Assembly: GCF_002764115.1 (NCBI RefSeq)
Contig: NZ_CP017944.1
Coordinates: forward strand, 222,439 to 286,438
DNA: 64,000 bases
Direction of reading: 5' to 3'
From: Phyllobacterium zundukense
GTDB lineage: Bacteria; Pseudomonadota; Alphaproteobacteria; Rhizobiales; Rhizobiaceae
Shown here: positions 7,756-20,168 of the stretch, one piece after another
Layout: each line of letters opens with the position of its first letter
How positions within the stretch are numbered: position 1 is the first letter of the stretch
The notes under the pieces: generated by a model
Seen by the model: the letters and a program-made list of their open reading frames with translations, nothing else
The model's database searches: none
Told to the model about the DNA's origin: nothing
Program-made: the position numbers and the translations under genes

Positions 7756-8814
7756 ATGACTGAGACTGTAAAACCAACACCCGAAGCGATCCGGCAGGCG
7801 AGGGCGGACAATCCGAAAATGCGCGAGCGCGACCTCGCACAGCAATTTGGAATATCCGAGGCCGATCTGGCAGCCGCCTATTGCGGGATCAACGTCATTC
7901 GCATCAGCCCGCGCATCGAAACGTTCCTGACCGAGATCGAATCGCTTGGCGAAGTTCTGGTGTTGACGCGCAATGAAAGCGCCGTGCACGAGAAGATCGG
8001 CGTCTATGACAAGCCTGTCGTCGGCAAGCATGCCTCGATGCTGCTCGGCGAGCAGATCGATATGCGCATCTTCCCGAATTCCTGGGCTCACGGCTTCGCA
8101 GTCGAAAAACACGATGGCGAGGACGTCCGCCGCAGCCTGCAGTTTTTCGACGCCGCTGGCGAAGCGATCCACAAGATCCACCTGCGCCCGGCATCCGATC
8201 TGGCAGCCTATGAGACGCTCGTCGCTACGCTGCGCCTGGACGACCAGTCCCAGACCCTGGAGCTGACATCGCTCCCGAAGTCCGAGGAAAAAACCCTTGA
8301 GATCGCGGAACTGGATGCTTCCGGCCTGCGCGACCGCTGGAGCCAGATGAAGGACGTGCATGAATTCTTCGGCATCCTGCGTTCGCTCAAGATGACGCGC
8401 CATCAGGCGGTGCAGGTGATCGGCCAGGATTACGCCTGGCAGCTCGATGCCGATGCACTGGCAGCGATGATGCACCATTCTGCACAGGAGCAGATCCCGA
8501 TCATGTGCTTCGTCGGTAACCGCGGCTGCATACAGATTCATTCGGGACCCATTCAGTCGGTCAAAGCCATGGGCCCGTGGATCAATATCCTGGACGAGAC
8601 TTTTCACCTGCATCTGCGCACCGATCACATTGCCGAGGTCTGGGCCGTGCGCAAGCCGACCAAGGATGGCCACGTCACATCGCTCGAGGCCTATGGCTCC
8701 GAAGGCGAGATGATCATCCAGTTCTTTGGCAAGCGGCATGAGGGAGCGGGCGAGCGCAGCGACTGGCGCCAGCTGATCGAAAGCCTGCCGCGCCTGATGC
8801 GTGTCGCAGCATAG
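7756..8814 (+). CDS. hmuS: Cytoplasmic heme-handling protein HmuS
   Basis: A 352-aa protein of the HemS/ShuS/BhuS family. It receives imported heme in the cytoplasm and passes it on or helps degrade it. The sequence is the typical internal duplication of two ~170-aa halves. The first half starts IRQARADNPKMRERDLAQQFGISEADLAAAYCG, a pattern shared across HmuS proteins. The second half has LRDRWSQMKDVHEFFGILRSLKMTRHQAVQVIG and ends WRQLIESLPR. No signal peptide is present, as expected. It is the second gene of hmuPSTUV. Confidence 0.94.
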   Translation: MTETVKPTPEAIRQARADNPKMRERDLAQQFGISEADLAAAYCGINVIRISPRIETFLTEIESLGEVLVLTRNESAVHEKIGVYDKPVVGKHASMLLGEQIDMRIFPNSWAHGFAVEKHDGEDVRRSLQFFDAAGEAIHKIHLRPASDLAAYETLVATLRLDDQSQTLELTSLPKSEEKTLEIAELDASGLRDRWSQMKDVHEFFGILRSLKMTRHQAVQVIGQDYAWQLDADALAAMMHHSAQEQIPIMCFVGNRGCIQIHSGPIQSVKAMGPWINILDETFHLHLRTDHIAEVWAVRKPTKDGHVTSLEAYGSEGEMIIQFFGKRHEGAGERSDWRQLIESLPRLMRVAA

Positions 8815-8824
8815 GGAATTGACG

Positions 8825-9706
8825 ATGACACTCAGACTCCCGATCATCGCCGGCGTTCTAGGCTTGTTATCCTTGTCCGGCGCCGCCTTTGCCGAAGAAA
8901 TCACCGGCCGCGTTCCCGATGCAAGCCGGGTGGTGTCGATCGGCGATTCCATCACCGAGATTGTCTATGCGCTCGGCGAGGAGGGGCGGCTGGTCGGTCG
9001 CGATTCGACCAGCACCTATCCCGACGCAGCCAACAAGCTGCCGGATGTGGGCTATATGCGCGCGCTGTCACCGGAGGGTGTGCTGTCGATCAACCCGACC
9101 GCAATCATCGCTGTCGAGGGTAGTGGTCCGAAAGAAACCATCGAGGTTCTCAGGAAGGCGAGCGTCCCCTTCGTCTTCGTGCCTGAAAAATACACCGCCG
9201 CCAGTGTGGCAGAGAAAATCCGCATCGTCGGCAAGGCACTTGGTGCCGACGACAAGGCGGAAAAGCTTGCAAAGCAGGTCGAAGCCGATCTTGCCGCCGC
9301 TCAAGCCGAGACGAAGGACGTCAAGGCTCGCAAGCGTGTGCTCTTCATCCTCAGCGCCAAGGACGGCAAGATCATGGGCTCGGGAACCAAGACGGCCGCC
9401 AATGGCATAATCGAACTCGCCGGCGCGGAAAATGCTGTCACGCAGTTTGAGGGCTACAAGCCGCTGACTGACGAGGGCATCATAACGGCAAGGCCGGACG
9501 TCGTTCTCGTCATGGATCGCGGCGGCGATCACTCCGCTGCGAATGCCGAGCTTCTCGTCAACAAGGCCATAGCTGCAACGCCTGCAGGCGAGGCCAAGAA
9601 CATCGTGCGCATGAACGGGCAACTTCTTCTCGGTTTTGGTCCGCGGGCGGCAAAGGCAGCGCATGATCTTGCCAAGGCAATCTACGGCAACGAAGTGAGC
9701 CAATGA
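8825..9706 (+). CDS. hmuT: Periplasmic heme-binding protein HmuT
   Basis: A 293-aa periplasmic heme-binding protein of the BtuF/TroA-like fold. It carries heme from the outer-membrane receptor to HmuUV. A signal peptide covers residues 1-23 (MTLRLPIIAG...GAAFA). The start at 8825 is preferred over 8801 because it directly precedes the signal peptide. RVVSIGDSITEIVYALGEEGRLVGRDSTSTYP is the family's N-terminal lobe, and the tail GFGPRAAKAAHDLAKAIYG matches the heme group's C-terminus. It overlaps hmuU by 4 bp. Confidence 0.94.
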   Translation: MTLRLPIIAGVLGLLSLSGAAFAEEITGRVPDASRVVSIGDSITEIVYALGEEGRLVGRDSTSTYPDAANKLPDVGYMRALSPEGVLSINPTAIIAVEGSGPKETIEVLRKASVPFVFVPEKYTAASVAEKIRIVGKALGADDKAEKLAKQVEADLAAAQAETKDVKARKRVLFILSAKDGKIMGSGTKTAANGIIELAGAENAVTQFEGYKPLTDEGIITARPDVVLVMDRGGDHSAANAELLVNKAIAATPAGEAKNIVRMNGQLLLGFGPRAAKAAHDLAKAIYGNEVSQ

Positions 9707-10824
9707 GCTATTCCGTCTTGATGAAGCCAGCCGCCCTGCGATCAACACAGGGTGGCGGAAAAACGCGTGCGGAAGGCGACCGTTCCTTTCTGGCGAAGTG
9801 CGTGATCCTGGTGCTTTGCATGGTTCTCGTGGCAACGATCATGTTCAGCCTTGCGGCTGGCGCATCTGATGCGTCGATCGTTTCGGTCATCGGCACAATG
9901 TTTTCGAGCGCCGGCAGCACAGGCGATGCTTTGACGCTGCGCGATCGCATCATCATCTACGACATCCGCCTGCCGCGCGTTATTCTCGGCGCGCTGATCG
10001 GCGCTTCGCTCGCCGTTTCCGGCGCGGTCATGCAGGGCCTTTTCCGAAATCCCTTGGCTGATCCCGGCATCGTCGGCGTATCGGCTGGTGCCGGCCTTGG
10101 CGCCGTCAGCATGATCGTCCTCGGCGGTACTTTCCTTGCACCTCTAATCGCCCTGTTCGGTTTCTATGCCTTGCCGCTGGCTGCCTTCTTCGGCGCGCTC
10201 GCCTTCACGCTGATCCTTTATCGTGTTGCCACGCGGCGCGGGCAGACATCCATCGCCACCATGCTGCTTGCCGGCATCGCCCTTGGCGCCATGGCCGGTG
10301 CCTATATGGGCGTCCTCGTCTACATCGCCGATGACCGGCAGTTGCGTGACCTCACCTTCTGGGGGCTGGGCTCGCTAGCCGGCGCCAACTGGGTGAAAAT
10401 TGCTGCCGCCGGTCCGTTCATCATACTGGCATTGCTGATCTCCCCCTTTCTCGCCCGCGGTCTCAACGGCCTTGCCTTGGGGGAGGCGGCAGCGAGCCAT
10501 CTCGGCATTCCAGTCCAGCGCTTCAAACGCATCGCGATTTTGGTTGTCGCGGCGGCAACCGGTGCGTCCGTTGCCGTCAGCGGCGGCATCGGCTTCGTCG
10601 GCGTGGTCGTCCCGCATCTGCTGCGCCTGATGATCGGACCGGATCACCGCTACCTGCTTCCGGCCGCCGCCCTGCTCGGCGCAAGCCTGTTGCTGCTTGC
10701 CGACGCGGTCAGTCGCACCATTGTCGCTCCGTCGGAACTGCCCATCGGCATCGTGACCGCTGCTGTCGGCGCGCCCTTCTTCCTGTGGATATTGCTGCGC
10801 CGCCGCGGCATTCTGGATCTATGA
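9703..10824 (+). CDS. hmuU: Heme ABC transporter permease HmuU
   Basis: A 373-aa FecCD-type permease with about ten membrane segments. It forms the inner-membrane heme channel with HmuV. Family landmarks are DIRLPRVILGALIGASLAVSGAVMQGLFRNPLADPGIVG (residues ~85-123), the cytoplasmic coupling region VVVPHLLRLMIGPDHRYLLPA near 305, and a C-terminus ending PFFLWILLRRRGI. A ~25-residue hydrophilic extension precedes the first membrane segment. It is coupled to hmuT and hmuV by 4-bp ATGA overlaps. Confidence 0.94.
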   Translation: MSYSVLMKPAALRSTQGGGKTRAEGDRSFLAKCVILVLCMVLVATIMFSLAAGASDASIVSVIGTMFSSAGSTGDALTLRDRIIIYDIRLPRVILGALIGASLAVSGAVMQGLFRNPLADPGIVGVSAGAGLGAVSMIVLGGTFLAPLIALFGFYALPLAAFFGALAFTLILYRVATRRGQTSIATMLLAGIALGAMAGAYMGVLVYIADDRQLRDLTFWGLGSLAGANWVKIAAAGPFIILALLISPFLARGLNGLALGEAAASHLGIPVQRFKRIAILVVAAATGASVAVSGGIGFVGVVVPHLLRLMIGPDHRYLLPAAALLGASLLLLADAVSRTIVAPSELPIGIVTAAVGAPFFLWILLRRRGILDL

Positions 10825-11618
10825 CAATGATCGAAGTTTCCGACGTTTCCGTTTTCCTCGGCAAGAAGCAGATCGTTGAAAATGCCAGCTTCAACACGGA
10901 AGCTGGGCAATTCACGGTGATCGTCGGTCCTAACGGCTCAGGCAAGACGACCCTGATGCGAGCCCTGTCCGGCGATTTGCCATTCACAGGGCGCATCGCC
11001 ATCAACGGACATTCAATCGACCAGCTGAAGCTCTGGCAAATGGCGGCGATGCGCGCGATCCTGCCGCAATCCACGTCACTGTCCTTCCCGTTCACGGTAC
11101 GGGAAATCGTCAAGCTCGGACTGACCAGCGGCCGCTCGGGAGCCGCGCGGCGTGAGGCGGAAGACCTGCCGGACGAAGCGCTGGCGCTGGTCGATCTCGC
11201 CGGGTTTGGCGGCCGTTTCTATCAGGAACTCTCCGGGGGCGAACAGCAGCGGGTGCAACTTGCCCGTATCCTCTGTCAGGTCTGGCAGCCCGTCCTTGAC
11301 GGCCAGCCGCGTTTTCTCTTTCTCGACGAACCGGTCTCCAGCCTCGACATCAAGCACCAGCTGATCATCATGCAGATCGCCCGGGCCTTTGCGAAGCGAG
11401 GCGGCGGCGTCATCGCCATCCTGCACGACCTGAACCTCACTGCGATGTATGCCGATCGTGTCGTCGTCATGCATCGCGGGTGTACCGATTCTGTGGGAAC
11501 ACCTGCGGAAGTCTTGACCGATGAGCGCATCCTGCGCGTCTATGAATGCGCGCTTAAGGTCGGTGCCTTACCCGCCGCGCAGGTCCCGTTCATACTGCCG
11601 CAGTCAGCTGCGATATAA
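10821..11618 (+). CDS. hmuV: Heme ABC transporter ATP-binding protein HmuV
   Basis: A 265-aa ATPase that powers heme import through HmuU. Walker A is GPNGSGKTT (~34-42), the signature is LSGGEQQRVQLARIL, and Walker B is FLFLDEPVSSLD. An H-loop follows (ILHDLNLTAMYADR). The start at 10821 overlaps the hmuU stop (ATGA) and is preferred over the upstream 10785 candidate. The stretch AQLLCQVWQP-like insertion between the signature and Walker B (ARILCQVWQPVLDGQPR) is usual for HmuV. It is the last gene of the plus-strand heme operon. Confidence 0.94.
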   Translation: MTMIEVSDVSVFLGKKQIVENASFNTEAGQFTVIVGPNGSGKTTLMRALSGDLPFTGRIAINGHSIDQLKLWQMAAMRAILPQSTSLSFPFTVREIVKLGLTSGRSGAARREAEDLPDEALALVDLAGFGGRFYQELSGGEQQRVQLARILCQVWQPVLDGQPRFLFLDEPVSSLDIKHQLIIMQIARAFAKRGGGVIAILHDLNLTAMYADRVVVMHRGCTDSVGTPAEVLTDERILRVYECALKVGALPAAQVPFILPQSAAI

Positions 11619-11678
11619 ATTGTCAGGAGCGATTTTTCTACCTATTGACACAGCATTGTTATTTGATACTAAATATAG

Positions 11679-11870
11679 ATGTTCCGGTTCTCTCGGTCGC
11701 AAGACTGGGAGCTAAGAGGGAAGTCGGTGAAGTGGGTCATTTCCACCAATCCCGGCGCTGCCCCCGCAACTGTAAACAGCGAGTTGCTGTCGCCTAAGGT
11801 CACTGGAGTGTTGCTTCGGGAAGGCCAGACAGCAGCGCCGACCTGTGAGCCAGGAGACCTGCCGAAACAT
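11679..11870 (+). ncRNA. Cobalamin (B12) riboswitch aptamer
   Basis: The region carries the conserved blocks of the cobalamin riboswitch in order: AGAGGGAAGTCGGTG (~11714-11729), GCTGCCCCCGCAACTGTAA (~11757-11775), GGTCACTGGAG (~11798), and the B12 box AGCCAGGAGACCTGCCG (11848-11864). The closing stem P1 pairs ATGTTCCGG (from ~11679) with CCGAAACAT (to ~11870). It lies ~120 bases before nrdA, in the same direction, with a structured stretch between. In this class adenosylcobalamin usually lowers expression. The gene controlled here is a B12-independent ribonucleotide reductase. Confidence 0.95.
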
Positions 11871-11907
11871 GATGATCGTCCACGGGCGGGGTGTCCCGGT
11901 GTGTCGC

Positions 11908-11987
11908 TTGCAATGGTCGGCGCGCCAAGCTGACCATCCACATTGCAATGCGTGCGCTCGACCTTTGCCCCCAACATTTGGGGTAAA
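11908..11987 (+). promoter_or_regulatory. Riboswitch expression platform with RBS-sequestering hairpin
   Basis: Two hairpins lie between the aptamer and nrdA. The first pairs TTGCAATGGTC (11908-11918) with GACCAT...ATTGCAA (11932-11948, a CCAC bulge). The second pairs TTTGCCCC (11964-11971) with GGGGTAAA (11980-11987) around an 8-nt loop. It buries the only purine-rich ribosome-binding site (GGGGT), just 3 bases before the ATG at 11991. No U-tract follows, so control of translation start is more likely than transcription termination. Confidence 0.65.
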
Positions 11988-11990
11988 CAC

Positions 11991-14870
11991 ATGTCTCTTG
12001 TCCTTGAAACTACTCGTACTGATGGCACTACGCCAGCTCGTGCCGGTGAAGCATTGCAGGCCACCGAGCCCGGTTATCGCGTCATCCGCCGCAACGGCTC
12101 GGTTACACCTTTCGATCCGCTCAAGATCACCGTCGCACTGACCAAGGCGTTTCTCGCCGTCGAAGGCAACGTCGCTGCCGGTTCGCGCCGCGTGCATGAT
12201 GTGGTCGAAGCGCTCACCGCCGACATCGTCACTACGCTGAAGCGGCGCAGTGCGGAAGGCCGCCTGTTTCACATTGAGGGTATTCAGGATCAGGTCGAGC
12301 TCGCATTAATGCGCAGCGAAAACCACAAGGTGGCGCGAGCCTATGTGCTCTACCGCGAAGAGCGGGCGCAGGAACGTGCGAAGGCCGCCACTGGAATCGT
12401 TAGCGATGCTGGTCCGATGTTCACAGTCACACTGCTCGATGGCCGCCGGGAGCCGCTCGACGACGACCGCCTGTCGCGCATTATCGACGAAGCCTGCGAA
12501 GCGCTGGAGGGCGTGCAGGCCGCTCCTGTCCTCACCGAGACCCGCCGCAATCTCTATGATGGCATAACGCTGGAGGAACTCTCCCTCGCGCCAATCCTTG
12601 CGGCGCGTACACTGGTCGAGACCGAACCCAATTATGCTTTCGTCACCGCGCGTCTGCTGCTCGACAAGCTGCGTCGCGAGGCGCTGAGCTTTGTCTTCGG
12701 CCGGCCGGAACAGGCGACCCAGCATGAAATGACCAAGCGCTATGCAGGGTATTTTCCGGCCTATGTGAAGGCCGGCATCGAAGCCGAACTGCTGGATCCC
12801 GAACTCGCGCGCTTCGACCTGACCCGCATTTCCGCGGCCCTCAAGCCGGAGCGTGACCTGCAGTTCCAGTATCTCGGCCTTCAGACCCTCTATGACCGCT
12901 ATCTGCTGCAGACGCGCGGCATACGTTTCGAATTGCCGCAAGCGTTCCTCATGCGCGTCGCCATGGGGCTTAGCCTGCGGGAAATCGACCGCGAAGCCCG
13001 CGCCATCGAGTTCTACGATCTCCTGTCCTCGTTCAACTTCATGGCTTCGACGCCGACCCTGTTCAATGCCGGCACCCAGCGCGCGCAGCTTTCCTCCTGC
13101 TTCCTGACCACTGTCGCCGATGACCTCGACGGAATCTTCAAGGCGGTGAGAGACAATGCACTGCTGGCCAAATATTCCGGCGGCCTCGGCAATGACTGGA
13201 CGCCGGTGCGCGGACTTGGCGCCCATATCAAGGGGACGAACGGCGAAAGCCAGGGCGTGGTGCCGTTCCTGAAAGTCGCCAATGATACAGCGATAGCGGT
13301 CAATCAGGGCGGCAAGCGCAAGGGCGCGGTCTGCGCCTATCTCGAAACCTGGCACATCGATATCGAGGAATTTCTCGACCTGCGCAAGAACACCGGCGAC
13401 GACCGCCGCCGCACCCATGACATGAACACCGCCAACTGGGTGCCGGACCTGTTCATGGCCCGTGTCGAAGCGGACGAAAACTGGACCCTGTTCTCTCCCG
13501 ACGAAACGCCCGAGCTGCATGATTTGTACGGTGCAGCATTCAAGACCAGATACGAATTCTACGAAACGAAAGCCGCACGCGGCGAGATCAAGATCTTCCG
13601 CACTGTACGGGCGCTGGATTTGTGGCGGCGCATCCTCACCATGCTGTTCGAAACAGGCCATCCGTGGGTGACGTTCAAGGATCCGTGCAATATCCGCTCA
13701 CCCCAGGGCCATGCGGGTATCGTGCATTCATCCAATCTTTGCACCGAAATCACCCTCAACACTTCGAAGGACGAGGTCGCAGTGTGCAATCTCGGTTCGG
13801 TCAACCTTGCCAATCATGTGACACCCCTTGGCCTTGATCTGGATCAACTTGCCCGCACCGTCTCGACCGCCATGCGCATGCTCGACAATGTCATCGACAT
13901 CAATTTCTACACCATTCCCGAAGCCCGCCACTCGAACCTGCGCCATCGTCCAGTGGGCCTTGGTCTGATGGGCTTTCAGGATGCACTGCAGGCATTGCGC
14001 ATCCCCTATGCTACCGACGAGGCAGTGGCGTTTGCCGACCTGAGCATGGAGGCAATTTCCTGGCATGCGATTTCAGCATCCGTCGATCTTGCTGCGGAGC
14101 GTGGCCGCTATCCGAGCTTCACCGGCGCGCTCTGGTCAAAGGGCATCCTGCCCATCGACTCCATCGAATTGCTGAACGACGCCCGCAAGGCAAGCGGCGG
14201 CCGGCTCGACATGGACCGTTCGTCGACGCTCGATTGGGAGGCGCTGCGCAAACGCGTAAAGACCACGGGCATGCGCAATTCCAACTGCATGGCCATCGCC
14301 CCCACAGCGACCATCTCCAATATTTGCGGCGTCGCCCAGTCCATCGAGCCTGCCTACCAGAACCTCTTCGTCAAATCCAACATGTCAGGCGATTTCACCG
14401 TCGTGAACAGTGCGCTGGTGCGCGACCTGAAACAACGCGGATTGTGGGACGAGGTAATGATCTCGGATCTCAAATATTTCGACGGCTCGGTTGGCGAGAT
14501 CGACCGTATCCCTGCAGACTTGAAGGCCCTTTATGCCACCGCCTTCGAGATCGACAGTTCCTGGCTGATCGCTGCGGCCTCGCGCCGGCAGAAATGGATC
14601 GACCAGGCCCAGTCGCTCAATCTCTATATTGCCAATCCGAGCGGCAAGAAACTGGACGAGCTTTACCGGCTTGCCTGGAACAGCGGCCTGAAAACCACCT
14701 ATTACCTGCGCTCGCGTTCGGCATCCCATGTGGAGAAATCCACCCTGAAGGGCACGGACGGCAAGCTCAACGCCGTGGCGGCAAAGCCTGCGCCGGAGCC
14801 AATCCTGCTTTCCGAACCCGCCGGCAATGTCTGCTCGATCAATGATCCTGACTGTGAGGCCTGCCAATAG
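11991..14870 (+). CDS. nrdA: Ribonucleoside-diphosphate reductase alpha subunit, class I
   Basis: A 959-aa catalytic subunit that reduces ribonucleotides to deoxyribonucleotides. The ATG at 11991 is used because it follows the leader's ribosome site. Two ATP-cone-like regulatory segments lie at the N-terminus (~25-110 from [18 protein letters not shown], and ~145-230). Active-site cysteines are C370 (LSSCFLTT), C584 (NLCTEI) and C599 (VCNLGSVNL). The radical-transfer pair is in TTYYLRS near 905. The C-terminal thioredoxin-type pair is C955/C958 (DCEACQ). It forms an operon with nrdB. Length and the extra cone are typical of the longer NrdA subtypes and unlike E. coli NrdA (761 aa). Confidence 0.95.
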
Positions 14871-14919: not shown

Positions 14920-16041
14920 ATGCTTGACTGGACCGAAACCACAAACAGCCCGAAACGCGCCATTCATCCGGCGCCTACCGCAACCGCCGATGCCACCGGA
15001 CTCGGCAATATCGATCGCGGCGGTGGCCGCGTGCGTGTCGATGACAAGGCGATGATCAATGCGCGCGCCGATGTGAACCAGCTTCTGCCGCTCAAATATC
15101 ACTGGGCATGGGAGAAATATCTTGCCGGCTGCAACAACCACTGGATGCCGACTGAAGTATCGATGCAGGCGGATATCGCTCTGTGGAAATCCAGGGACGG
15201 GCTGACCGATGACGAGCGGCGCATGATCAAGCGCAATCTCGGCTTCTTCGCCGCTTCCGAGTCCCTCGTCGCCAATAACATCGTTCTGGCGATCTACCGC
15301 CATCTCACCAATCCCGAATGCCGGCAATATCTGTTGCGCCAGGCCTTCGAAGAGGCGGTCCATACCCATACGTTTCAGTATATTGTCGAGAGCCTTGGCC
15401 TTGATGAAGGCGAGCTCTTCAACATGTACCGCGAAGTGCCGTCGATTACCGACAAGGCGGCCTGGGCGCTGAAGCACACGCAAAATCTCGACAATCCCGA
15501 TTTCAAGACAGGCACGCCGGAATCCGATCAGTCCTTCCTGCGCGATCTCGTCGCTTTCTACGTCATCTTCGAGGGCATGTGGTTCTACACAGGCTTCGCC
15601 CAGATCCTGTCGCTCGGGCGGCGCAACAAGATGGTCGGTATCGCCGAGCAGTATCAATACATCCTGCGCGACGAGAGCATCCACATGAATTTCGGCATCG
15701 ATGTGATCAACCAGATCCGGAACGAGAACCCGCATTTGTGGACCAGGGCATTTCAGGACGAGATCCGCGACATGATCAGGGTCGCTGCCGAGCTGGAAGC
15801 ATCCTACGGCCGCGATACGATGCCGCGCGGGTTTCTCGGGCTCAATGCTGCACTGTGCGAAAGCTACATGTATTTCATCGCCAACCGCCGCTGCGCTCAG
15901 TTAGGCCTCGTCCCCGTCTTCGCCGAGACAGACAATCCATTTCCCTGGATGTCGGAAGCCATGGATCTGAAGAAGGAGAAGAACTTCTTCGAAACCCGTG
16001 TCATCGAATACCAGAACGGCGGAGCACTGGCATGGGATTGA
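14920..16041 (+). CDS. nrdB: Ribonucleotide reductase beta subunit, class Ic signature (Phe for radical Tyr)
   Basis: A 373-aa metal-cofactor subunit. Metal ligands read as E114 (ASESLV), E145 and H148 (EEAVHTHTF), E218 (FEGMWFY), and E252 and H255 (RDESIH). Where E. coli NrdB has radical Tyr122 (ETIHSRSY), this protein has F152. Where class Ia/Ib have Asp as first ligand, it has Glu. Both features define class Ic of Chlamydia trachomatis, whose Mn(IV)/Fe(III) centre replaces the tyrosyl radical, and the surrounding sequence also closely resembles the Chlamydia protein as I recall it. The C-terminus [18 protein letters not shown] carries the tyrosine used for radical transfer. ATG 14920 is preferred over 14827 and 14899. 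Metal use is inferred. Confidence 0.93.
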
Positions 16042-16274
16042 AACTCGCGGAACGGGTGGCGGCCAACCCGTCAACCGGTTCGGCCACTGCGCGGCCGGAA
16101 GATATCTTCCTCGCCTGGTTGTTCTGGCTGCCGAAGAATGCGGACCTGCTCGAGGCCGCGAGCCGCGAGATCCAGCGCATCGATTCCCGTGCCATCGATG
16201 CGGAGGGCCCGCAGCAATTAAAGGCGCTGTTCATGGCCTTGATCGAAAATCTGAGAGGGGGCAGGGCGTATTGA
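16032..16274 (+). CDS. 80-aa unknown protein translationally coupled to nrdB
   Basis: An 80-residue ORF ([15 protein letters not shown]...) starts 10 bp inside the 3' end of nrdB, on the same strand, and ends at a hairpin. The overlap and lack of any gap indicate a real third gene of the RNR operon. It is mostly helical in appearance: an amphipathic LAERVAAN, a hydrophobic [17 protein letters not shown] near 33-49, and a final helix [15 protein letters not shown]. There are no cysteines, no signal peptide and no known domain that I recognise. A role in assembly or metal loading, or as a small NrdB partner, can be proposed only from its position. Confidence 0.72.
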
Positions 16275-16391: not shown

Positions 16392-19300
16392 ATGAGTATT
16401 GCAGTCGATAATCTGTTCGGTCCCATGGACGCTCCGCGGGACGGACGGGAGGTTTTTGCGGCGCTTACCAAGGCGGCGCAGGAACGTATCCTCATTCTCG
16501 ACGGCGCCATGGGCACGCAGATCCAGGGTCTCAACCTCAACGAGGAAAGCTTTCGCGGCGAGCGCTTTGCGGACTGCTCCTGTCATCTGCAGGGCAATAA
16601 TGATCTCCTGATCCTGACGCAGCCGCAGGCAATCGAGGATATCCACTATGCCTACGCCATGGCAGGTGCCGATATTCTCGAAACCAACACCTTTTCCTCC
16701 ACGACCATCGCCCAGGCTGACTACAGCATGGAAGAGGTGGTCTATGAGCTGAACCGGGATGGCGCGCGGCTTGCCCGCCGTGCTGCCTTGAAAGCGGAGC
16801 AGAAGGATGGCCGCCGCCGCTTTGTCGCCGGCGCGCTCGGCCCGACCAACCGCACCGCCTCGATTTCACCGGATGTCAACAATCCCGGCTATCGCGCTGT
16901 TACCTTCGACGATCTGCGCATTGCCTATGCCGATCAGGTGCGCGGCCTCATCGATGGCGGCGCGGATATCATCCTTATCGAGACGATCTTCGACACGCTC
17001 AATGCCAAGGCGGCAATCTTCGCGACACAGCAGGTGTTCGAGGAGAAGGGTATCACCCTTCCGGTGATGATCTCCGGCACGATTACCGACCTGTCCGGTC
17101 GCACGCTTTCAGGCCAGACCCCGACGGCCTTCTGGTATTCGGTGCGCCATTCCCGGCCTTTCACCATCGGTCTCAACTGCGCGCTCGGCGCCAATGCCAT
17201 GCGCGACCATCTGGCGGAAATTGCCAGCGTTGCGGATACGTTCGTCTGCGCCTATCCCAATGCCGGCCTGCCCAACGAATTCGGCCAGTATGACGAGAGC
17301 CCAGAGGCGATGGCTGCGCAGTTGGAGGAATTCGCCAAGGAAGGCCTGCTCAACATCGTCGGCGGCTGCTGCGGCTCTACCCCCGAACATATCCGGGCGA
17401 TTGCCGAGGCCGTCGGCAAGTACAAGCCGCGCGAGATTCCCGAGACCGCGACGCATATGCGCCTCTCGGGCCTCGAGCCCTTCACGCTGACCAAGGATAT
17501 TGCCTTCGTCAATGTCGGTGAGCGCACCAACATCACCGGCTCCGCAAAGTTCCGCAAACTCATCACCGCCGGCGATTTCGGCGCGGCGCTTGATGTCGCA
17601 CGCGATCAGGTCGCCAACGGCGCGCAGATCATCGACATCAACATGGATGAAGGCCTGATCGACAGCGAAAAGGCCATGGTCGAGTTCCTCAACCTGATCG
17701 CCGCCGAACCGGATATCGCCCGCGTGCCGGTGATGATCGATTCATCCAAATGGGATGTCATCGAAGCCGGGTTGAAATGCGTCCAGGGCAAGCCGCTGGT
17801 CAATTCCATCTCCATGAAGGAAGGCGAGCAGGCCTTTATCGACCACGCCAGGAAGGTGCGCGCCTATGGTGCTGCCGTGGTCGTCATGGCGTTCGACACG
17901 GACGGTCAGGCCGATACGCTGGAACGCAAGGTCGCGATCTGCACGCGGGCCTATGAGCTTCTGACTACAGAGGCCGGTTTCCCGCCTGAAGATATCGTCT
18001 TCGATCCAAATGTCTTTGCCGTCGCCACCGGCATCGAAGAGCACAATGGCTATGGCGTCGCCTTTATCGAAGCAACGAAGCAGATCACCGAAACCCTGCC
18101 GCATGTGCATATTTCCGGGGGCATCTCCAATCTGTCCTTCTCGTTCCGTGGCAATGAGCCGGTCCGCGAGGCCATGCACGCGGTATTCCTCTACCATGCT
18201 ATCCAGGTCGGCATGGACATGGGTATCGTCAATGCCGGTCAGCTCGCGGTCTATGAATCTATCGATCCGGAATTGCGCGAAGCCTGCGAGGATGTGGTTC
18301 TCAACCGCCGCGACGATGCCACCGAGCGGCTGCTCGACCTTGCAGAGCGCTACAAGGGTTCAGCGGGCAAGGAAGCGCGCGAACGCGATCTTGCCTGGCG
18401 CGAATGGAGCGTCGGCAAGCGCATCGAGCATGCGCTGGTCAATGGCATCACTGAATTCATCGATGTCGATACCGAAGAGGCGCGGCTTGAAGCCGAGCGG
18501 CCATTGCATGTGATCGAAGGTCCGTTGATGGCCGGCATGAATGTCGTCGGCGATCTCTTCGGTGCCGGCAAGATGTTCCTGCCCCAGGTGGTGAAATCTG
18601 CCCGCGTGATGAAACAGGCGGTGGCTCTGCTCCTGCCCTATATGGAGGCGGAAAAACTTGCCAATGGCGGCACCGGCGAGCGCGAAAGTGCCGGCAAGGT
18701 GCTGATGGCGACCGTCAAGGGCGACGTGCACGATATCGGCAAGAACATCGTCGGCGTCGTACTTGCCTGCAACAATTACGAGATCATCGATCTGGGCGTC
18801 ATGGTGCCTTCGGCGAAGATCCTGCAGATCGCCAAGGAACAGAAAGTCGATATTATCGGTCTCTCCGGCCTGATCACGCCATCGCTCGACGAGATGGTGC
18901 ATGTCGCCTCGGAAATGGAGCGGGAAGGCTTCGATATACCGCTGCTGATCGGCGGTGCCACGACCAGTCGCGTGCACACTGCGGTCAAGATCAATCCGCG
19001 CTATAATAAGGGCCAGACCATCTATGTGACGGATGCGGGCCGCGCCGTTGGCGTCGTCTCCAATCTCCTGTCGCTGGAGACCAAGCCTGGATATGTCGAG
19101 ACGATCCAGGCCGAATACGTGAAAGTCGCGGAGGCCCATGCGCGCAATGAAGCTGACAAGCAGCGTCTGAGCATCGACAAGGCCCGCGCCAATGCGCAGA
19201 AGATCGACTGGTCATCCTACACGCCGCCCAAGCCCAGCTTCCTCGGAACGCGGGTGTTTGAGAATTACGATCTTGTCGAAATCGCCCGCTACATCGATTG

Positions 19301-20168
19301 GACGCCATTCTTCCAGACTTGGGAATTGAAGGGCCGCTACCCGGCCATTCTCGAGGATGAAAAGCAGGGGGCAGCAGCACGGCAGCTCTTCGACGATGCG
19401 CAGGCAATGCTGCAGAAGATCATTGCCGAGAAATGGTTCAACCCGAAGGCGATTATCGGCCTATGGCCAGCGGGTACCGTCGGCGACGACATTCGCCTGT
19501 TCACCGACGAAGCACGCAAGGAGGAACTTGCGACGTTCTTCACCCTGCGCCAACAGCTGTCGAAGCGCGATGGCCGCCCGAATGTGGCACTCGCCGATTT
19601 CGTCGCGCCCGTGGATAGCGGCAGTCAGGATTATATCGGCGGATTTGTCGTCACCGCCGGCATCGAGGAAATCGCCATTGCCGAGCGCTTCGAGCGGGCC
19701 AATGACGATTATTCGTCCATCCTTGTCAAAGCTTTGGCCGACCGTTTCGCCGAAGCCTTTGCCGAATTGATGCACGAACGTGTTCGCAAAGAGTTCTGGG
19801 GCTACGCGCCCGACGAAACCATTGCGCCGGATGAGCTGATCGGCGAACCCTATCGCGGCATCCGCCCGGCACCCGGCTATCCGGCACAGCCGGATCATAC
19901 GGAAAAGGAAACGCTGTTCCGGCTGCTCGACGCCGAGGCCAAGATCAATGTGCGCCTCACGGAAAGCTATGCCATGTGGCCCGGCTCATCCGTTTCGGGC
20001 ATCTATATTGCCCATCCGGACAGCTATTATTTTGGCGTCGCCAAGGTCGAGCGCGATCAGGTGGAAGACTATTCGAAGCGCAAATCCATGCCAATCGAAC
20101 AGGTCGAGCGCTGGCTTGGCCCGATCCTCAACTACGTCCCGGCGCCACGGGTTCAGGCCGCCGAGTGA
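16392..20168 (+). CDS. metH: Cobalamin-dependent methionine synthase
   Basis: A 1258-aa full-length MetH. It transfers the methyl group of methyltetrahydrofolate to homocysteine through enzyme-bound cobalamin. Modules in order: the homocysteine domain with zinc ligands C263, C326 and C327 (LNCALG, GGCCGS); the pterin domain from ~370 ([16 protein letters not shown]); the B12 cap and binding domain with [11 protein letters not shown], whose H780 is the cobalt ligand; and the AdoMet reactivation domain (~920-1258) with [12 protein letters not shown]. All catalytic residues are present. It is a single gene after a palindromic promoter. Its 3' end overlaps the convergent AraC gene by 16 bp. Sitting next to a B12-riboswitch operon underlines local cobalamin use. 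Confidence 0.97.

Follow-up and report, generated by a model that had tools for sequence, protein, structure and literature searches.

Class Ic-type ribonucleotide reductase genes behind a predicted cobalamin riboswitch in Phyllobacterium zundukense

To our knowledge, the chemistry of class Ic ribonucleotide reductases (RNRs) is known almost entirely from one intracellular pathogen. The class and its residues are established (excerpts of PMC8463856, PMC4118035 and PMC9936198). Its R2 subunit from Chlamydia trachomatis (R2c; 1syy, 4d8f, 4m1h, 4m1i) has glutamate as first metal ligand, phenylalanine at the radical site and all remaining ligands, as has the NrdB described here. An actinobacterial R2 from Saccharopolyspora erythraea (6y2n), whose structure comes from a paper on beamline methods with no metal chemistry in its excerpts (PMC7467353), aligns with this NrdB ungapped over residues 36-373 and has the same residues at the 11 sites compared below.

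Cobalamin riboswitches are known from other RNR genes. Streptomyces nrdABS, reportedly described with a B12 riboswitch by Borovok in 2006, resembles our locus in having a cobalamin riboswitch before nrdAB and an NrdJ in the same organism, but is called class Ia. B12-riboswitch control of the class Ia nrdAB of Streptomyces is also reported in excerpts of PMC4991794. Propionibacterium acnes shares with our locus a riboswitch and an NrdR box before nrdAB as well as the presence of NrdJ, and both its nrdAB and its nrdDG genes are annotated with cobalamin riboswitches (PMC3848588, in part). For P. aeruginosa, a B12 response of the nrd genes that involves no riboswitch is reported (excerpt of PMC5962746). 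In S. meliloti, according to passages of PMC6759758, nrdJ is essential and E. coli nrdAB sustained a strain lacking it; class I can therefore replace class II in a rhizobium. In the literature available to us in excerpt, we found nothing tying a cobalamin riboswitch to a class Ic enzyme, and a 2003 comparative-genomics study of B12 regulation may note the coupling.

The locus described here lies in a 64-kb stretch of the Phyllobacterium zundukense genome (the window), which forms the last 64 kb of a 286-kb contig (286438 bp) and reaches up to the contig end. Its features are listed in Table 1.

Table 1. Features at the nrdAB locus, in window coordinates
Feature	Position	Strand	Basis or remark
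hmuS-hmuT-hmuU-hmuV, heme use/uptake	7756..11618	+	names from Pfam families and gene order; genomic context, not counted with the system
NrdR-box-like element 1, CTACCTATTG	11638..11647	+	overlaps -35-like TTGACA (11645-11650)
cobalamin riboswitch aptamer, RF00174	11668..11880	+	119.3 bits (gathering 31.5), full model 1-189
NrdR-box-like element 2, CTAAATATAG	11669..11678	+	31 bp from element 1, presumed -10 region
CCCCCGC of the aptamer	11761..11767	+	complementary to GCGGGG at 11886-11891
CCCCC-AACATTT-GGGG hairpin holding Shine-Dalgarno-like GGGG	11968..11983	+	7 nt before ATG 11991
nrdA, catalytic subunit, 959 aa from ATG	11991..14870	+	barrel and ATP-cone families, conserved positions
nrdB, class Ic-type R2 subunit, 373 aa	14920..16041	+	residues, translation, NF005550 673.7 bits (cut-off 309)
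metH, B12-dependent methionine synthase	16392..20168	+	downstream context

The NrdB and NrdA subunits

The translation of nrdB is a single intact open frame; a longer listed ORF starts at 14827. In an alignment, the first metal ligand is E114 (in ASESLV) and the radical-tyrosine site is occupied by F152 (in EEAVHTHTF), exactly the two residues that a first-pass annotation of this DNA had numbered, and both match R2c. The other five ligands are kept (E145, H148, E218, E252, H255), and W75, Y154, Y247 and Y364 were located as further sites. Across 11 ligand and pathway columns, the window NrdB, 6y2n and 1syy all read WEEHFYEYEHY, whereas E. coli NrdB reads WDEHYHELEHY. Class Ic is recognized by phenylalanine or another redox-inert residue at the radical-tyrosine site, by glutamate as first ligand alongside the other five, and by grouping with C. 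trachomatis R2c, not with class Ia or Ib. NrdB has these residues, and it groups with R2c both in search scores and in a tree, where the branch with all E/F rows on one side is weak (60/25). The best solved relatives are the S. erythraea R2 (688.5 bits) and, more distantly, R2c (446.9 bits), while E. coli R2 chains are far off at about 50 bits.

Several other assignments were rejected. NrdB lacks both the aspartate first ligand and the radical tyrosine of a class Ia small subunit. Class Ie subunits are metal-free, with ligand carboxylates replaced; NrdB keeps four glutamates and two histidines. R2lox oxidases have no large-subunit partner; here nrdA adjoins nrdB, and the best R2lox model (NF006200) scores 56.8 bits against a cut-off of 194. 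Class Id requires a Tyr/Glu pairing (PMC8463856, in excerpt), where NrdB has F152/E114.

For a broader comparison, 80 loci were kept of 581 encoding a relative. By their titles they come from Alphaproteobacteria, Acidobacteria and Actinomycetes; in the best segment they share 79-91% identity with the window, which may hint at lateral transfer. Glutamate and phenylalanine occupy both sites (E/F) in 200 of 201 aligned sequences (the window, the 80 of 581 loci and 120 proteins); these, like all E/F counts given here, come from related sequences and not from independent events. The exception, P0002, has aspartate and tyrosine (D/Y), and one sequence has V in the E252 column. P0002, a protein of 608 aa from a public contig, contains an internal duplication and shows Asp/Tyr in an otherwise R2c-like sequence; an artefact of assembly is possible. 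Another set, of 339 sequences, comprises 216 E/F, 123 D/Y and no mixed pairs. It leaves out P0002, P0055 and P0122 (length cut) and includes the D/Y relatives found from G031, a genome of the same family; its D/Y rows also contain E. coli NrdB and NrdF and the NrdF of another family genome, G063. The D/Y relatives (that of G031 and the 119 read of P0122-P0241) have the aspartate first ligand and radical-site tyrosine of class Ia, unlike the window NrdB.

In a tree of 59 sequences, the window protein lies inside the E/F set with the C. trachomatis and S. erythraea proteins, next to those of a Phyllobacterium locus (L003) and of genome G149. All E/F rows fall on one side of a branch that 57% of 200 bootstrap trees contain, and together with P0002 they are held at 98/100. 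The tree program flags long branches for E. coli NrdB, the C. trachomatis protein, G063 NrdF and P0002. The D/Y rows sit between E. coli and the E/F set, which makes Asp/Tyr to Glu/Phe the simpler direction of change, under a root that is our own inference and not the program's. Residues, sequence search and tree position all back the class Ic assignment of the first-pass annotation. The protein type is common, and class Ic RNR itself is a known kind of enzyme; NrdB, judged by its residues, probably runs on a Mn/Fe centre without a tyrosyl radical. In one family genome (L107; G062 C38:129458-130572), nrdB matches in two overlapping frames, covering residues 1-314 and 316-373, a split that may reflect a frameshift or a sequencing error.

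The partner subunit is intact. It was compared with E. coli NrdA at ten positions (T209, C225, N437, C439, E441, C462, Y730, Y731, C754, C759), catalytic and pathway residues among them, and has the same residue in 10 of 10; the ATP-cone family matches NrdA in two stretches. The ORF listing starts nrdA at TTG 11943 (975 aa); the ATG at 11991 is the likelier start, because of its spacing from the Shine-Dalgarno-like hairpin. Between nrdB and metH there is a small ORF (16059-16274) with no Pfam match and, at 1e-10, no match in the 80 of 581 loci.

The leader of nrdA

At gathering thresholds, Rfam yields a single match in the window: RF00174, directly upstream of nrdA, with a covariance score above threshold for the full aptamer. 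The leader is predicted to bind cobalamin. GCGGGG, which lies within a hairpin at 11884-11897, and the CCCCCGC of the aptamer form a putative kissing pair, whose loops we take to be L5 and L13.

The hairpin before the start codon would, as we read it, be the Shine-Dalgarno sequestering element of a translational switch. Its layout (C4...G4) recurs in 34 of 40 Pseudomonadota loci, the window included, against 1.9 expected from shuffles, with loops that differ in sequence and length. It is absent from all seven Acidobacteriota and all six Actinomycetota loci, so the mode of switching must differ there. In the minimum-energy fold of the window leader, the hairpin is not a stem of its own. The hairpin counts, like those for NrdR boxes, refer to the window and 53 loci from a profile scan and leave out L065, L077 and L080; the hairpin count also leaves out L061, which has no start.

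NrdR boxes come in pairs spaced about 31 bp apart. The two predicted boxes of the window have this spacing and match the core at 17 of 20 positions, by sequence the arrangement of an NrdR regulon member. Pairs with at least 15 of 20 matches occur in 27 of 54 loci, including the window, against 0.14 expected from shuffles; the consensus was taken from PMC4009431, seen in excerpt.

Co-occurrence with a second reductase

The P. zundukense genome comprises six contigs (3.95 Mb, 640, 586, 533, 286 and 211 kb), the five smaller ones with one RepC match each. nrdAB and metH share the 286438-bp contig with its own repC, and a class II nrdJ lies on the 3.95-Mb contig. Its product scores 2350.9 bits with the equivalog model NF005736 (cut-off 1737). 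The genome search gave no other small-subunit family match and no class III NrdD. The first-pass annotation had missed both this class II enzyme and the riboswitch before nrdA. Five further RF00174 matches lie elsewhere in the genome. Judged by eye, the first long frames after four of the five encode an ABC ATPase, a BluB-like protein, a Rieske oxygenase and a CbtA-like protein; we count the BluB-like and CbtA-like cases for the B12 reading given below.

NrdB matches were found in 35 of 151 genomes of the family, 19 at 66% identity or above and 16 at 27% or below. Among the 19, one (G031) is D/Y and 18 reach 80% identity or more. Of these 18, the window and 15 others were read, all 16 as E/F; the reading did not include G074, whose nrdA is divided between contigs, or G062, whose nrdB runs over two frames. 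RF00174 lies just before nrdA, on the same strand, in 16 of the 18 genomes with this NrdB type; in G074, split over C22 and C31, it was placed by position on the second contig. For a genome of 6.2 Mb with six riboswitches, we calculate a probability of about 2 in 10,000 per genome that one falls by chance within 500 bp and on the right strand. All 16 carry a further large-subunit gene, which, outside G074 and G008 with their fragmented copies, resembles P. zundukense NrdJ in score and frame length, the NrdJ model itself having been applied to the P. zundukense gene only. The two exceptions, G076 and G044 (1.4-1.5 Mb), have no RF00174 anywhere, a single large-subunit gene and no class II gene.

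G031 (L101) has an Asp/Tyr NrdB 66% identical and an NrdA 61% identical to those of the window, and no riboswitch upstream of nrdA. Another genome of the window's genus, G063 (L102), has class Ib-like NrdE/NrdF in place of class Ic: no class Ic-type NrdB was found, its NrdF groups with E. coli NrdF, and it carries a further large-subunit gene of NrdJ size.

Among the loci drawn from the 80 of 581, RF00174 precedes nrdA in 56 of 76, spread over Pseudomonadota, Acidobacteriota and Actinomycetota. Four were dropped from this count with nrdA cut (L002, L007, L042, L058). In 31 of the 56, the profile scan agrees with Rfam (31 of 31 compared); 18 rest on Rfam run on the locus itself (L065, L077 and L080 on Rfam alone) and seven on the profile scan alone (L004, L012, L029, L031, L033, L049, L055). 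The other loci are 19 without an upstream riboswitch and one ambiguous case excluded from the 56 (L063, whose match lies some 0.75 kb before the start expected for nrdA). Four of the 19 have RF00174 downstream of nrdB (L067, L071, L075, L079), and one (L039) has an nrdA match that covers residues from 218 onwards. A second large-subunit gene is present in 67 of 72 genomes searched for these loci. Five genomes have a single one, with a riboswitch in L019 and L060 and none in L021, L057 and L073, and 16 of the 19 riboswitch-less genomes nonetheless carry a second one. A one-to-one rule, by which the riboswitch implies class II and the reverse, does not hold; the link is strong but not strict.

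The E/F residues in L074 (Streptomyces nanshensis) raised the suspicion that the riboswitch-controlled RNR of Streptomyces is class Ic under a class Ia label. For the genus we rejected this, the NrdBs read there being D/Y: 58 of 61 genomes have an NrdB that shares 33-36% identity with the L074 protein and two have no match; a reading of 29 of the 58 gave 28 with D/Y and one (L134) in a wrong reading frame.

B12 supply and alternative readings

Residues, riboswitch match, boxes, NrdJ and co-occurrence, all observed here, make it quite probable that nrdAB is a B12-repressed class Ic Mn/Fe backup for the chromosomal NrdJ, used when B12 is short; metal content, B12 binding, the direction of regulation and the identity of the dominant RNR are the parts that we infer. 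In R2c, Mn(II), Fe(II) and O2 would give rise to a Mn(IV)/Fe(III) centre, which, in place of a tyrosyl radical, would generate the thiyl radical in NrdA. Plentiful adenosylcobalamin would bind the leader riboswitch, the Shine-Dalgarno hairpin would form, translation of nrdA would be held down and NrdJ would do the work. With B12 or cobalt short, the leader would open and the Mn/Fe enzyme be made. NrdR would add nucleotide-responsive repression at the promoter.

We also lean, with little better than even confidence, towards a more general switch from cobalt to manganese/iron, a B12 riboswitch being coupled to a Tyr-free Mn/Fe RNR in Alphaproteobacteria, Acidobacteriota and some Actinomycetota. 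B12 supply would then set the metal on which DNA synthesis depends. The family genomes without class II (two small ones) and the close relative with the Asp/Tyr (iron) site, G031, all lack the riboswitch. If such a switch exists, the cofactor of class Ic would be a widespread, B12-controlled choice in many other bacteria, and these would offer tractable hosts for asking why Mn/Fe is preferred over Fe/Tyr when cobalt is short. The window type and its Asp/Tyr relatives of about 66% identity, as in G031, would form a natural pair for studying the interconversion of classes Ia and Ic.

An enzyme kept mainly for oxidative or nitrosative stress or iron limitation, with the riboswitch secondary, seems unlikely to us. 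The absence of a tyrosyl radical from a Mn/Fe centre would suit it, as would the adjoining hmuSTUV genes, an Nramp-family transporter in the genome and the report that class Ia nrdABS of S. coelicolor is raised under oxidative stress (PMC4991794, in excerpt). Yet in up to 7 kb of flank, hmuSTUV lies beside nrdAB in only two of the 80 loci (of 581), both Phyllobacterium, and HmuU/HmuV are also near nrdAB in G149, of the window's own genus; HmuV-like matches in L020, L022, L032 and L035 are weak (25-30% identity) and were taken as other ABC ATPases. With this distribution we rejected heme/iron genes as defining the function, and the link that the first-pass annotation had drawn to them is not supported. 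Its class Ic reading is supported, its rationale of resistance to superoxide or nitric oxide is not: scans for Rfam families and NrdR boxes brought up a cobalamin riboswitch and a box pair, elements that suggest control by B12 and NrdR.

The other two alternatives concern the radical centre. We doubt that NrdB, class-Ic-like in its E/F residues, holds another metal pair (Fe/Fe or Mn/Mn) in vivo. Mismetallation of the R2 scaffold has been noted (excerpt of PMC8463856) and ligands alone do not fix the metal (excerpt of PMC4118035), but NrdB has the residues of C. trachomatis R2c at all 11 sites compared, and this, with its search score against that protein, speaks against another pair. Much less credible still is a class Ia enzyme with its radical tyrosine displaced to Y154 or Y247. 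Both tyrosines are near the ligands in sequence and both occur in the D/Y relative G031, but C. trachomatis R2c, the type enzyme for a Tyr-less radical, has equivalents of both, and NrdB fails the Asp/Tyr residue test. The first-pass annotation had named Y154 as a shifted radical tyrosine that would overturn class Ic; since R2c carries the same tyrosine, its presence is uninformative.

Two further arrangements of cobalamin riboswitches were seen near nrdAB. In an Amycolatopsis locus (L067), which has none before nrdA itself, a riboswitch at 8233-8455 follows nrdB and precedes a gene recognized by eye as encoding MetE (B12-independent methionine synthase). L092, L099, L100 and L018 have, just downstream of nrdB, a gene that looks like one for a Rieske-type oxygenase, with a second riboswitch in front of it; in P. 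zundukense, the riboswitch before such a gene is found at C1:673092 (L096), away from nrdAB.
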